Shown here: piece by piece, positions 22,319 through 59,887 of the stretch | How positions within the stretch are numbered: position 1 is the stretch's first letter | Layout: each line of letters starts with the position of its first letter | DNA from: Deltaproteobacteria bacterium | GTDB lineage: Bacteria > Myxococcota_A > UBA9042 > DTJE01 | DNA length: 64,000 nucleotides | Direction of reading: 5' to 3' | NCBI GenBank assembly: GCA_029547805.1 | Contig: JAKPOP010000017.1 | Location: 372,001-436,000, forward strand | The notes under the pieces: generated by a model | What the model was told of the DNA's origin: nothing | The model's database searches: none | Seen by the model: only the letters and a program-made list of their open reading frames with translations | Made by a program: the position numbers and the translations under genes

Positions 22319-22466
22319 CTTGCCTCCCTCGAGCCTCGGCCTCGACCGAGGCGCCTGTCCCGCCGATGTTCCCCGCAAGAAAGGAAGGGATCCGCCCCCT
22401 CCCCCTCGCCGCCTCACGGGTCGCGGCGCGTCCTTTCCCCGGGCTTCACGCGCGGGCCTCCGGCCG

Positions 22467-23015
22467 CTACGCTCCCGCGGCCCGCCCTTCCGGGTGGGCG
22501 ACGATTCCACCGTGACCGCAACGCCCTTCCTCCGACCGGGTGGCGGAACCCTCGTCGGCAACATCGTCCCTGGGCCGCCCAAAGCGCCGGGTGGCCTCCA
22601 GGCGTCCGTTCCGGACCAGGTCCGCCAGGGAGATGCCACCCAGGATTCCGTCCAGGGCCTCCTCGACCCGCATCCAGACCGGGCGCAGGCCGCACGAGGC
22701 GGCCTGGCCGCAGGGCTGCTCCCGGTCGTCGAGGCACGGGCCGGTACGGACGGCCCGCCCTGCCAGGGCCGCCAGGGCCTCCGCCACCGAAATCTGCCCG
22801 GGGTCCCGGGCCAGGGCGACGCCTCCCCGGGAACCCCGAATGCTTCGAACGAGCCCTGCATTCCGGAGGATCGACATCAACTTCGCCACGTAGGCCTGGG
22901 TCAGCCCCTCGTCCCGGGCCACCTCCCCGAGGGTGGTGTCCCGGCCAGCCTGCCAGCAGACGGCCAGTCGCATCAGGCACCTCAGGCCGTGTTCCTCGGT
23001 GGCGCTCACTCGCAT
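22467..23015 (-). CDS. Rrf2-family Fe-S-sensing repressor of the suf operon
   Basis: This 182-residue transcription factor belongs to the Rrf2 family (IscR, NsrR, SufR-like). The N-terminal winged helix starts MRVSATEEHGLRCLMRLAV and includes the GSRGGVALARDP wing. Three cysteines (C-x7-C-x5-C, in PCLDDREQPCGQAASCG) are in the right place to bind an Fe-S cluster. The C-terminal ~25 residues are low-complexity and variable. The start at 23015 has AGGAG upstream. It heads the suf operon and probably controls it and itself through the inverted repeat at 23058. Confidence 0.92.
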   Translation of the reverse strand: MRVSATEEHGLRCLMRLAVCWQAGRDTTLGEVARDEGLTQAYVAKLMSILRNAGLVRSIRGSRGGVALARDPGQISVAEALAALAGRAVRTGPCLDDREQPCGQAASCGLRPVWMRVEEALDGILGGISLADLVRNGRLEATRRFGRPRDDVADEGSATRSEEGRCGHGGIVAHPEGRAAGA

Positions 23016-28958: not shown

Positions 28959-28988
28959 TTGACAAGGGGCGACCGGAGGCATGATCAT
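28959..28988 (+). promoter_or_regulatory. Predicted promoter of the transketolase/RuBisCO-like operon
   Basis: A perfect -35 TTGACA (28959-28964) is followed after 18 nt by GATCAT (28983-28988), matching the -10 consensus at four of six positions. It would start a transcript about 25 nt before the ATG at 29019. The same bases lie next to the 5' end of mfd, so the two units are divergent. Confidence 0.45.
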
Positions 28989-29018: not shown

Positions 29019-29276
29019 ATGGGGTTCGACTGGTGGTCCCCGAAACGAAACGAGTCCTGGGAACGAAGACTGTCGGGGCGCTTCGAGGAGGCCATCCGGC
29101 GGGAGATCCTGGAGCGGGCCTCCCTTCTGGCCCGCCTCGGCTGGTCCCGGGACGCCGCCCTCAAGCGGCTCCAGGACCGGGTTCGCTGGGACTTCGAGAT
29201 GAGCAAGGTCCCCACGGCCGTCTGGAAGGAGATCCCGTCACTCGTGGACCAGGCCTTCCCCCGAGGCGCGAAGTAG
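29019..29276 (+). CDS. Small conserved-looking protein of unknown function
   Basis: This 85-residue protein was not recognised. It is rich in Trp, Arg and Glu and largely helical (RRLSGRFEEAIRREILERASLLARLGW), with no signal peptide, membrane segment or cysteine motif. The ATG has GGGAGG six bases upstream. It is the first gene of the unit with the split transketolase, 52 nt ahead of it. The clean ribosome site and codon use make it a real gene; I would not assign a function. Confidence 0.7.
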   Translation: MGFDWWSPKRNESWERRLSGRFEEAIRREILERASLLARLGWSRDAALKRLQDRVRWDFEMSKVPTAVWKEIPSLVDQAFPRGAK

Positions 29277-29328
29277 CGGGAGGAGCCCGGACCAGGACCG
29301 GGTCGGCTCCCGGGAAGGAGGTCTGCCC

Positions 29329-30189
29329 GTGACGTGGAACCGATCCCTGTTTCGTCCTCTGGACCTCCCGGAACTGCACCAGAAGACCCAGGCCCTCCGT
29401 GACCTCATGATCGAGGTCGCCTGGCGGACCGGGGGAGCCTATCTCGCCCAGGCCCTCTCGGGCATCGACCTGCTGGCTGCGGTCCATTACCGCTATGCCG
29501 CCGGTGATGCCGCAGCCCCCGAGGCCGCGGATCGGGACCGGGTGCTGCTGTCTCCGGGGCACTATGCCCTGGCCCTCTACGCCATCCTGGCCGACCGGGG
29601 CTACTTCCCGAAGGACTGGCTCTGGACCTTCAAGGACGACGGCTCCCCTCTCGAACTGGCGACCCATCGGGGCACGGTCCCGGGGGTCGAGGTCAGCGGC
29701 GGCTCCCTCGGGCAGGTCCTCTCGTTGGGCGTCGGCATGGCCCTGGCGGCCCGCCGTTCCGGGCGGACCCACCGGGTCTTCGTGCTGATGAGCGACGGGG
29801 AACAGGACGAAGGGCAGGTCTGGGAGGCGGCGGCCAGTGCGGCCCACTTCCGCCTGGGCTCCCTGGTGGCCCTGATCGACGCCAACGGGTTCCAGGTCGA
29901 CGGACCCACGGCCGAGGTGATGAACATGGAGCCCCTGGGGGACAAGTACCGGGCCTTCGGCTGGGATGTCGAGGAGGTGGACGGGAACGACCTGCCGGCG
30001 GTCTGCGCCGCCCTCGATCGCCTGACGATGCCGGAACGGGACCGGCCGGGACTGGTGCTGGGACGCACCATTCGTGGCAAGGGGGTCTCGTTCATGGAGG
30101 GCCACCCGGGCTTCCACTACGCGCGCCTCGACGCCTCGATGGCCGACCAGGCCCGGAGGGAACTCCAGGCGGATACCGACGCGGTCTGA
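29329..30189 (+). CDS. Transketolase, N-terminal (thiamine-binding) subunit
   Basis: This 286-residue protein is the first half of a split transketolase. It carries the thiamine diphosphate motif in GDGEQDEGQVWEAAASAAHF-type sequence (here SDGEQDEGQ ... DANGFQVDG). GHYALALYAIL and VSGGSLGQVLSLGVGMA, which contact the cofactor and substrate, are also present. The start is a GTG with AAGGAGGT six bases upstream. The C-terminal subunit follows after 25 nt. Split transketolases move two-carbon ketol units between sugar phosphates, but some relatives act on other substrates. The next gene, a RuBisCO-like protein, hints at a special pathway. Confidence 0.92.
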   Translation: MTWNRSLFRPLDLPELHQKTQALRDLMIEVAWRTGGAYLAQALSGIDLLAAVHYRYAAGDAAAPEAADRDRVLLSPGHYALALYAILADRGYFPKDWLWTFKDDGSPLELATHRGTVPGVEVSGGSLGQVLSLGVGMALAARRSGRTHRVFVLMSDGEQDEGQVWEAAASAAHFRLGSLVALIDANGFQVDGPTAEVMNMEPLGDKYRAFGWDVEEVDGNDLPAVCAALDRLTMPERDRPGLVLGRTIRGKGVSFMEGHPGFHYARLDASMADQARRELQADTDAV

Positions 30190-30214
30190 GGCATCCGGGA
30201 CCAGGGAGGACTTG

Positions 30215-31177
30215 ATGGAAGACCTGCTGCTGGCGCAGCCCCAGGAGGAGACGGGACCCTACCGGCGGACGCTGGTGGCGGTGGGCGAGGCCCGGCCCGA
30301 GGTCGTCGTCCTGGGGGCCGACCTGGGGAATTCAACGGAGATCGACGCCTTCCAGCAGCGCTTCCCGGACCGTTTCTTCAACGTGGGATCGGCGGAGCAG
30401 AACGAGGTGGACATCGCGGTGGGAATGGCCTTCGAGGGCCAGGTCCCCTTCGTCCACTCCTTCGGGGTCTTCCTGACCCGGCGGGCCTACGAGCAGGTCT
30501 GCGTCCAGGTGGCGATGCACGGGGCCAACGTGAAACTGGTCGGGATGATCCCGGGCCTCACCTCCCGGCTGGGCCCCACCCACCAGGCCATCGAGGATCT
30601 CTCATTGATGCGCACGCTGCCGGGCATGACCGTGCTGGACCCCGCCGACGCCACGGAGATCGAACAGGCCGTCTGGGCGATGGCGGACCACCGGGGACCG
30701 GTCTATGCCCGCATGATGCGCCGGGAGGTCCGACGGGTGCTGGACCCGGAACGCCACCGCTTCCAGATTGGCAAGGCCGTGCCCCTGGCCGCGGGCCGGG
30801 ACGTGCTGCTGGTCTCGACGGGCCTGGTCCTGGAAACGGCATTGCAGGCCGCCGCGATGCTCCGCTCCGAGGGGGTCTCGGCGGCGGTCCTCCACATGCC
30901 GACGCTGAAACCCCTGGACCGGGAGTGCCTGCTGGATCTGGCCCGGGACGCCGGGGCCGTCGTGACCATCGAAAACCACCTGGTGACCGGGGGCCTCGGA
31001 AGCGCCGTGGCCGAGGTCCTGGGGGAGGCGCTGCCGCTTCCGCTGGAGCGCGTGGGGTTGCGGGACACCTTCGCGGTGCCCGGAACCCCGGAGTTCCTGT
31101 TCCGCCGGTACGGGATCACCCCCGAGGCGGCGGTGTCGGCGGCCCGGCGTGCCGTGACCCGGAAGAGCCCCCGATGA
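30215..31177 (+). CDS. Transketolase, C-terminal subunit
   Basis: This 320-residue protein is the second half of the split transketolase. It covers the pyrimidine-binding domain (GADLGNSTEIDAFQ, FFNVGSAEQNEVDIAVGMAFEG with the catalytic Glu) and the C-terminal domain (VLLVSTGLVLETALQAA, TIENHLVTGGLGSAVAEVL). It resembles the C-terminal subunits that also look like DXP synthase. The ATG at 30215 has GGGAGG upstream. Its stop codon overlaps the start of the RuBisCO-like gene (ATGA). Confidence 0.92.
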   Translation: MEDLLLAQPQEETGPYRRTLVAVGEARPEVVVLGADLGNSTEIDAFQQRFPDRFFNVGSAEQNEVDIAVGMAFEGQVPFVHSFGVFLTRRAYEQVCVQVAMHGANVKLVGMIPGLTSRLGPTHQAIEDLSLMRTLPGMTVLDPADATEIEQAVWAMADHRGPVYARMMRREVRRVLDPERHRFQIGKAVPLAAGRDVLLVSTGLVLETALQAAAMLRSEGVSAAVLHMPTLKPLDRECLLDLARDAGAVVTIENHLVTGGLGSAVAEVLGEALPLPLERVGLRDTFAVPGTPEFLFRRYGITPEAAVSAARRAVTRKSPR

Positions 31178-32571
31178 CCCTCCCCGACGATTCCTCCAGG
31201 GTGGATGACGCCACCGGGGAGAATGAACGGCGACGCCGCCATGGCCGAGCCGTCGGCCGCCCGGATGGACGAGCCGCTGGAGCGGAGCGACCCAGGGGCC
31301 GCGAGCGAGGCACCGGGAAGGGGGCGCGCCGCGACCTCGACGCGGCGTGCGACGAGGAGCGGATCCCTCCCGTCCATGAAGACGACCCGTCCTCGACCGG
31401 CCAGGAGGAACCCCTGCTGGAGGTCCTCTACCGACTGGAGGGCAGCCAGGAGGAGTGCCGGGACCGGGCGCGACTGCTGGCCATCGAGGAGACCGCCGAG
31501 GTCAGCCCGGACCTCTGCGACACCCCCTTCTTCCGGGATCGGGTGGTGGGTCGGGTCGGCCAGGTCTCGCCGCTGCCGGGCCGGCGGGCCTGCAGGGTCT
31601 CCATCTCCTATCCCGGAGCCGTGGGAGGCCGGGAGATCCCCCAGTGGGTCAGCGTGCTGTTCGGAAACGTGAGCCTCTGGCCCGGGGTGCGGGTCGAGGC
31701 GGTACGGCCCTCCCCCGCCCTGCTGCGGTCCTTCCCGGGACCGGCCTTCGGCATCCCGGGCCTCCGGCGACTGCTGGGAGTCCCTGATCGCCCCCTGGTC
31801 CTGTCGGCGGTGAAGCCCCTGGGGCGCACCGTGGCCGAACTGGCCCGGATGGCCGAGGAACTGGCCCTGGGAGGCATCGACATCCTCAAGGACGACCACG
31901 GCATCACGGACCAGGACTTCGCCCCCTTCCGGGAGCGGGTCGCGGCCTGTGCCGAGGCGGTGCGCCGGGCTTCGGACCGGACGGGCCATCGCTGCCTCTA
32001 CTTCCCGACCGTCACCGGCCCCGCCGACGAGATGGCGGCCCGGGCCCAGTGGGCGCTGGACCATGGGGCCGGCGGCCTGCTGGTCTCCCCGTGGGTCGCG
32101 GGGTTGGACTGGGTCCGGGCCCTGGCCCGACAGACGGGCCTGCCGGTGATGGCCCATCCAGCCCTGGCCGGGGCCTTCTTCTCCCACCGGGATCACGGCA
32201 TCGCAATGCCCGTGGCGATGGGAACGCTCGTACGCCTGGCCGGGGCCGACCTCGCGATCTTCCCGGGGCCCGGGGGACGGTTCGCCCCGGCCCCGCAGGA
32301 GGTGGCAGCCTGGGACCGGGCCCTCAAGGAGGACCTCCCGGGCGTGGCGCCCACGATGCCGGTCCCCGCCGGGGGACTGCCCCTGGAGGGACTCGGGTCC
32401 CTGCTGGAGATCTTCGGCCGGGACGTGGCCTTCCTGGTAGGGTCCTCCCTCTACCGCCACTCCCCGGACCTGTCTGCGAACGCCGCCCATCTGCGGCGCC
32501 TGGTCGAGGAGGCCCTGGAGGCCATTCCGCCGACGCCCGCCCCGAGGCGCCGATCCCCTTCCCCCACCTGA
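31174..32571 (+). CDS. RuBisCO-like protein (form IV) with an odd N-terminal extension
   Basis: This 465-residue protein matches the RuBisCO large-chain fold but is not a true RuBisCO. The loop holding the activating lysine is GGIDILKDDHGITDQDF: the Lys and first Asp pair are kept, but the metal-binding Glu is His. The KPKLGL motif is SAVKPLGRT, HxxLxGAF is HPALAGAFF, and the loop-6 lysine region (IFPGPGGRF) lacks the lysine. Such form IV proteins act as isomerases, enolases or transcarboxylases in sulfur or sugar-acid salvage. The first ~70 residues are Arg/Asp/Glu-rich and unlike the family; no other start codon is available. The ATG overlaps the transketolase stop. Confidence 0.85.
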   Translation: MTLPDDSSRVDDATGENERRRRHGRAVGRPDGRAAGAERPRGRERGTGKGARRDLDAACDEERIPPVHEDDPSSTGQEEPLLEVLYRLEGSQEECRDRARLLAIEETAEVSPDLCDTPFFRDRVVGRVGQVSPLPGRRACRVSISYPGAVGGREIPQWVSVLFGNVSLWPGVRVEAVRPSPALLRSFPGPAFGIPGLRRLLGVPDRPLVLSAVKPLGRTVAELARMAEELALGGIDILKDDHGITDQDFAPFRERVAACAEAVRRASDRTGHRCLYFPTVTGPADEMAARAQWALDHGAGGLLVSPWVAGLDWVRALARQTGLPVMAHPALAGAFFSHRDHGIAMPVAMGTLVRLAGADLAIFPGPGGRFAPAPQEVAAWDRALKEDLPGVAPTMPVPAGGLPLEGLGSLLEIFGRDVAFLVGSSLYRHSPDLSANAAHLRRLVEEALEAIPPTPAPRRRSPSPT

Positions 32572-59072: not shown

Positions 59073-59088
59073 GAGCGTCTAACAAAAC
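59072..59088 (+). repeat. Left terminal inverted repeat of the IS
   Basis: Seventeen bases, AGAGCGTCTAACAAAAC, identical to the reverse complement of 59937-59953. The last base belongs to the transposase stop codon (59088-59090 on the minus strand). Confidence 0.9.
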
Positions 59089-59887
59089 TATTCTCCCAGC
59101 AGGTGGTTGAGGCAGACGAGGGCGCAGGCGATATGGAGGAATGCCTCGTGGATGTCGGCCCTGCGCTCCCACCGCATGGCGAGGCAGCGGTGGACGTGGA
59201 TCCAGGCGATGGAGCGCTCCACGACCCAGCGGTGCTTGCCGAGGCGCTCCTTGGAATCGACGCCGCGGCGGGCGATGCGGGGCTGGATGCGCCTGCGGCG
59301 GCAGGCCAGACGGCACCGCCGGTAGTCGTAGCCCTTGTCGGCGTGGAGTTTGTCGGGGCGCTTCCGGGGGCGTCCCCGTCGGCCCCGGACGGGGCGAACC
59401 CGGTCGAGGAGCGGCTCCAGTGCCATGCTGTCGTGCTGGTTGGCCGGGCCGATCATCGCCGCGAGTGGGATGCCCTGGCCATCGACGAGGATGTGGTGCT
59501 TCGTCCCGAGTTTCCCCCGGTCCGTAGGATTCGGGCCAGTTTCAGGGCCCCCTTTTTTGCCCGGATGCTGCTGGAGTCCAAGCAGGCCCGGGCCCAGTCG
59601 ATGCGCTCGTCCTGCCCCAACTCGTCCAGCAGAACCTGGTGGATGCGCGCCCAGACCCCAGCCTCGTGCCAGTCCCGAAGGCGACGCCAGCAGGTCATGC
59701 CAGACCCGCAGCCCATCTCCTTGGGCAGGTACTCCCACGGGCATCCCGTCTTCAGCAAGAAGAGGATGCCCGTCAGCGCCATCCGGCTGTCCAAGCGCGG
59801 CCGCCCGCCCTTCGGCTTCGGCGGCTCGGGCGGCAGCAGCGGTTCGATCCGGGTCCACAACTCGTCGGGAAGGAGGGGCTTTGCCAT
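59088..59887 (-). CDS. IS5-family DDE transposase made by programmed -1 frameshift
   Basis: The first frame (59887 down to 59453) starts MAKPLLPDELWTRIEPLLPPEPPKPKGGRP and carries the first catalytic Asp in ACLDSSSIRAKKG. The second frame, -1 relative to the first, continues with GTKHHILVDGQGIPLAA, the second Asp in LHADKGYD and the Glu in WVVERSIAW. The join is at the slippery heptamer A_AAA_AAG (plus-strand 59552-59558). The full product is about 266 residues, the normal size for IS427-type transposases. If no shift occurs, a 144-residue truncated protein forms, which may act as a regulator. Confidence 0.88.
59552..59558 (-). promoter_or_regulatory. Slippery heptamer A_AAA_AAG for -1 frameshifting
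   Basis: In the first transposase frame the codons read GCA-AAA-AAG; slipping back one base gives AAA-AAA-GGG in the second frame. The downstream sequence is GC-rich (GGGGGCCC) and could form a stimulatory structure. This type of site is known in the IS427 group. Confidence 0.8.

Follow-up and report, generated by a model that had tools for sequence, protein, structure and literature searches.

In the MTA-isoprenoid shunt of Rhodospirillum rubrum and R. palustris, a RuBisCO-like protein (RLP) of the DeepYkr clade (Rru_A1998/RPA2169) is paired with a cupin, the MTXu-5P methylsulfurylase Rru_A2000/RPA2170. The DeepYkr protein RLP1 of R. palustris, whose gene adjoins the cupin gene, converts 5-methylthioribulose-1-P (MTRu-1P) to 1-methylthioxylulose-5-P (MTXu-5P) and 1-methylthioribulose-5-P in a 3:1 ratio, both in vivo and in vitro (PMC5893883). 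The nearest solved structure to both halves of the split transketolase considered here is the split-chain enzyme of Carboxydothermus hydrogenoformans (PDB 6yaj, 6yak), which is encoded by two genes. A further described route, the DHAP shunt, consists of MtnK/MtnP, MtnA and the class II aldolase Ald2. It is, to our knowledge, largely unsettled how most anaerobes recover the methylthio group of 5'-methylthioadenosine (MTA), a sulfur-containing by-product of S-adenosylmethionine, when the ARD step, which depends on oxygen, is not available. The gene set described below is a concrete candidate for oxygen-free MTA salvage in genomes of many phyla, among them that of Clostridium ljungdahlii, an acetogen in culture.

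We analysed a 64,000-nucleotide stretch of DNA from a Deltaproteobacteria bacterium (hereafter, the window), in which four genes form an operon spanning positions 29019-32571, with intergenic gaps of 52, 25 and -4 nt in gene order (Table 1). An earlier note on this DNA had described the close spacing, the single ATGA overlap and a promoter candidate, all of which were found in place. The overlap of tktC with the RLP gene is also kept in a relative of the same genus (G001). The promoter-like site agrees with the consensus at 10 of 12 positions, lies 31 bp 5' of the 85-aa gene and is the sole one in the region, where shuffled sequence gave an expectation of 0.1. In Pfam, tktN matched Transketolase_N (1e-34), tktC matched Transket_pyr and Transketolase_C (4e-34 and 1e-29), and the RLP matched RuBisCO_large (4e-29).

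Table 1. Features of the operon region, in window coordinates.
Feature	Position	Strand	Basis and remarks
Sigma-70-like promoter candidate, TTGACA-18-GATCAT	28959-28988	+	Consensus match only
85-aa ORF	29019-29276	+	ORF call; helical protein, no match in Pfam, NCBIfam or a fold search
tktN, N-terminal half of split transketolase-like ThDP enzyme (H26Y, SDG variant)	29329-30189	+	GTG start; Pfam
tktC, C-terminal half of split transketolase-like ThDP enzyme (E411 kept, D469L)	30215-31177	+	Pfam
DeepYkr-clade RLP (KDDHG), predicted 5-methylthioribulose-1-P 1,3-isomerase	31174-32571	+	Motifs, tree, fold match
Dispersed-repeat copy, in-frame insertion at 5' end of RLP gene	31209-31371	+	Repeat search, comparison with relative

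The first gene encodes a conserved protein of three helices that had no match in Pfam, NCBIfam or a fold search; throughout the bacterial family to which the genome belongs, it stays next to the RLP gene, also in genomes whose transketolase pair has relocated. Homology does not reach the start of the RLP ORF, the conserved part beginning near residue 79 (about 31408). Residues ~12-66 correspond to a copy of a GC-rich dispersed repeat of ~160 bp, which occurs at least 17 more times in the genome at 70-80% identity (at least 18 in all), one of them in the window at 22383-22545. This copy is missing from the RLP gene of G001, where a tail of 22 aa stands at the start of the protein versus 78 aa in the window RLP. 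Elsewhere in the window (59088-59887), two neighbouring minus-strand ORFs resemble, from their sequence, the halves of an insertion-sequence transposase.

The earlier note had correctly read that the RLP carries KDDH in place of KDDE and lacks the loop-6 Lys (FPGPGGRF). Its view of these as odd losses did not hold, since both are standard in the DeepYkr isomerase clade, across which KDDH is nearly invariant. None of the NCBIfam models of named RuBisCO forms reached its cut-off with this protein, the form III model included (156 bits, cut-off 497). By both sequence and fold, the nearest solved structure was R. palustris PDB 3qfw, which has KDDHG and the GGRF loop in common with the window RLP. 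3qfw is most likely RLP1, because R. palustris has two RLPs and 2qyg is RLP2. A maximum-likelihood tree of 107 RLPs, with SH-aLRT support only and with the R. rubrum RLP left out, placed the window RLP inside a KDDHG clade (SH-aLRT 98) together with 3qfw and the cupin-linked RLPs, separate from MtnW (99), OiaX-like, Photo and form I sequences. Comparison with the form IV clades thus led to DeepYkr, whose known reaction is related to the one proposed here. There is a strong case for predicting that the window RLP is an MTRu-1P 1,3-isomerase. A true RuBisCO was ruled out, as the HMM scores fall short, KDDH stands at K201-D203-E204, the loop-6 K334 is absent and the tree sets the protein apart.

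The transketolase pair and the RLP gene recur far beyond this genome. Same-class relatives have tktN-tktC-RLP in identical order, and a scan of GTDB genomes returned more than 500 related stretches, the best 80 of which came from Bacillota, Chloroflexota, Nitrospirota, Planctomycetota, Spirochaetota, Actinomycetota, Pseudomonadota and candidate phyla. The trio is therefore widespread, and these relatives rule out an orphan RLP unique to one genome. Among 98 loci with a DeepYkr-type RLP, a transketolase lay within 8 genes in 66, a figure inflated because the scan query was built from mostly transketolase-linked RLPs; a cupin was found in 8, both in none and neither in 24. At unannotated loci, genes were called by a simple codon-usage script, and individual boundaries are rough. 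In family f37, five genomes that encode a DeepYkr RLP lack both partners (for example, loci L190-L192 in G183, G195 and G278).

Rru_A2000-like cupins beside the same RLP type matched PDB 3jzv (E 3e-51 and 1e-38), which is Rru_A2000, the R. rubrum MTXu-5P methylsulfurylase. The tree neighbour of 3qfw, a Terrarubrum RLP, also adjoins a cupin matching 3jzv, and two of the eight cupins are divergent (L092 and L134; 32-38% identity to the Terrarubrum cupin). In three of the eight cupin loci, RLP and cupin are fused into one protein of ~530-570 aa (L095, 6926-8527; L096; L144, 6881-8602). Cupin-linked RLPs are scattered over the tree, some nested among transketolase-linked ones; they may have a single origin. 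No locus had both a cupin and a transketolase beside the same RLP type, so that the two seem able to replace each other as the step that follows a single RLP reaction. On a Vibrio nigripulchritudo plasmid (L148), the RLP of the trio is divergent, with KEDD and a long branch, and an FGGY kinase replaces MtnK/MtnA; this trio perhaps acts on another substrate.

We compared residues of the RLP-linked transketolases with E. coli TktA, Dxs and the C. hydrogenoformans split enzyme. The subfamily retains D155, G156, N185, H261, S385, E411, H473 and R520, among which D155, N185, E411 and H473 are the ThDP/metal and catalytic residues of transketolase (EC 2.2.1.1). H26 is replaced by Tyr in 59 of 59 proteins and D469 by Gly or Leu in 61 of 61, and GDG is mostly SDG; the H100 region is also changed, less certainly, as the alignment is gapped there. 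In transketolase, H26 and D469 contact oxygens of the substrate; a changed substrate is therefore expected here, with the ThDP chemistry remaining. A second split transketolase is encoded in the window genome, so that the copy in the trio is a paralogue and not the sole pentose-phosphate enzyme. The RLP-linked split transketolases form a distinct subfamily, likely functioning in the salvage proposed here.

The genomic context of the trio was also surveyed. Plasmids of Agrobacterium, Shinella and Pararhizobium have the order sugar ABC transporter, mtnK, mtnA, tktN, tktC, RLP, and the set from mtnK to RLP also occurs in C. ljungdahlii, C. drakei, Actinomycetota and others; mtnA or mtnK adjoined just 18 of the 98 loci. 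In one genus (g5), tktN-tktC lies away from the RLP gene and is followed by metY (above the curated cut-off), with cysK added in one genome, and in two genomes of family f41, where the pair is likewise apart from the RLP gene, it adjoins a DeoD-type (purine) nucleoside phosphorylase. Across 284 genomes of the window's phylum, 25 had both the RLP and this transketolase type, 7 the RLP only, 2 the transketolase only and 250 neither (Fisher p about 2e-27, uncorrected for kinship). Among 53 relatives, MetY was found in 10/21 genomes with the RLP versus 1/32 without it, and ARD in 4/21 versus 21/32. The window genome encodes MTA phosphorylase (MtnP), MtnA and MetY; searches of it for MtnK, ARD and a Rru_A2000-like cupin found no match.

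We propose that the operon is probably the middle of an oxygen-independent MTA/methionine-salvage shunt, in which a split ThDP enzyme replaces the cupin and methanethiol is freed. MTRu-1P would come from MTA phosphorylase and MtnA, whose genes lie outside the operon. Judging by its clade and motifs, the RLP would shift the position of the carbonyl, with 1-methylthioxylulose-5-P and/or 1-methylthioribulose-5-P as product, and the split enzyme would cut the C2-C3 bond of the ketose phosphate, yielding glyceraldehyde-3-P and a ThDP-bound methylthio two-carbon unit. Phosphoketolase expels water, and sulfoacetaldehyde acetyltransferase sulfite, from a ThDP-bound unit. On the model of these two enzymes, we speculate that methanethiol is most likely expelled from the bound unit, and the acetyl group left would go to phosphate or water. 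MetY, the gene for which is present, would recapture the methanethiol as methionine. The split enzyme would thus take the position of the cupin methylsulfurylase in the R. rubrum shunt, and we infer with good confidence that it acts after the RLP in salvage. That it is specifically a methylthio-phosphoketolase, converting 1-methylthio-ketose-5-phosphate to glyceraldehyde-3-P, methanethiol and acetyl phosphate in a phylum-wide, undescribed pathway, is put forward tentatively. The earlier note had suggested sugar or sulfur salvage and a keto-sugar phosphate that passes between the transketolase and the RLP. The sulfur option, with the RLP handing the keto-sugar phosphate on, is now well supported by the clade, by the genes that share the operon, by the cupin that stands in for the transketolase at other loci and by what else the genome encodes. 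Counting against the proposed shunt are the small share of loci with mtnA or mtnK alongside and the f37 genomes that have the RLP without either partner. The trio enzymes may also handle 5'-deoxyadenosine sugars.

It is possible, though rather unlikely, that the main substrate is instead 5-deoxyribose from 5'-deoxyadenosine, a waste product of radical SAM enzymes. The RLP would then convert 5-deoxyribulose-1-P to 1-deoxyxylulose-5-P or its epimer, and the split enzyme would give glyceraldehyde-3-P and an active acetaldehyde unit, released or transferred. MtnK/MtnA-type enzymes also act on 5-deoxyribose in known shunts, TktC scores well against DXS, the neighbouring DeoD phosphorylase fits this substrate, and some clusters carry LsrF, a class II aldolase/SDR, RbsD and sugar importers. 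However, metY beside the transketolase pair and its co-occurrence with the RLP point to the methylthio group, and MTA phosphorylase is present in the window genome. The trio clusters that add LsrF thiolase, an aldolase/SDR fusion, RbsD mutarotase or SorC regulators (L112, L132, L128, L087 and L097) suggest a 5-deoxy-sugar or AI-2-like side branch.

A doubtful alternative of similar standing keeps the RLP as the isomerase and has the split enzyme either work as an ordinary transketolase, with an aldose phosphate as acceptor of the methylthio-C2 unit, or release 2-methylthioacetaldehyde, another enzyme freeing methanethiol. The transketolase fold, the kept ThDP residues and the kept phosphate residues S385 and R520 are consistent with this, but the substrate-side H26 and D469 are lost in all members and no dedicated downstream enzyme recurred in the neighbourhoods. 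2-Methylthioacetaldehyde is also an intermediate of the DHAP shunt (PMC6302742). A sugar route of an unrelated kind, for instance apionate catabolism with OiaX and an AptAB-like transketolase, is very improbable and was rejected on HMM cut-off, motifs and tree: the RLP scored 82 bits against the OiaX model NF042437 (cut-off 700), and OiaX-like plasmid RLPs are distant in the tree and adjoin a four-carbon acid sugar kinase without a transketolase. Apiose routes do include both a split transketolase and an RLP. Least probable of all is MtnW, the enolase of aerobic methionine salvage, which was likewise rejected, since the HMM matches to MtnW models are weak and below the cut-offs (223 bits vs 409, 180 vs 514), the motif is KDDH, not KDDE, ARD is absent from 13/13 genomes of the family and the tree places the RLP apart.

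The salvage shunt proposed above would give a large group of orphan RLPs a likely function and suggests a biological source of methanethiol. A literature search, outside which most subscription journals fell, found no report of a transketolase joined with an RLP or methylthio-sugars; the proposed step, a split ThDP enzyme after the RLP, is absent from this searchable literature, and an earlier description is possible. With the MTA-isoprenoid shunt, the window genome has MtnP, MtnA and a DeepYkr RLP in common, as well as the predicted re-assimilation of methanethiol by a MetY/Met17-type enzyme. It differs in that a split transketolase-like ThDP enzyme stands in place of the cupin, so that DXP is not an expected product here. 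The proposed route resembles the DHAP shunt in the oxygen-free salvage of MTA or 5'-deoxyadenosine sugars, with C5 going to C3 and C2. In that shunt, the aldolase cuts MTRu-1P directly, whereas here the RLP would isomerise first and the ThDP enzyme is the predicted cutter. The split transketolase of C. hydrogenoformans keeps H26, GDG and D469, all three of which are changed in the RLP-linked subfamily.
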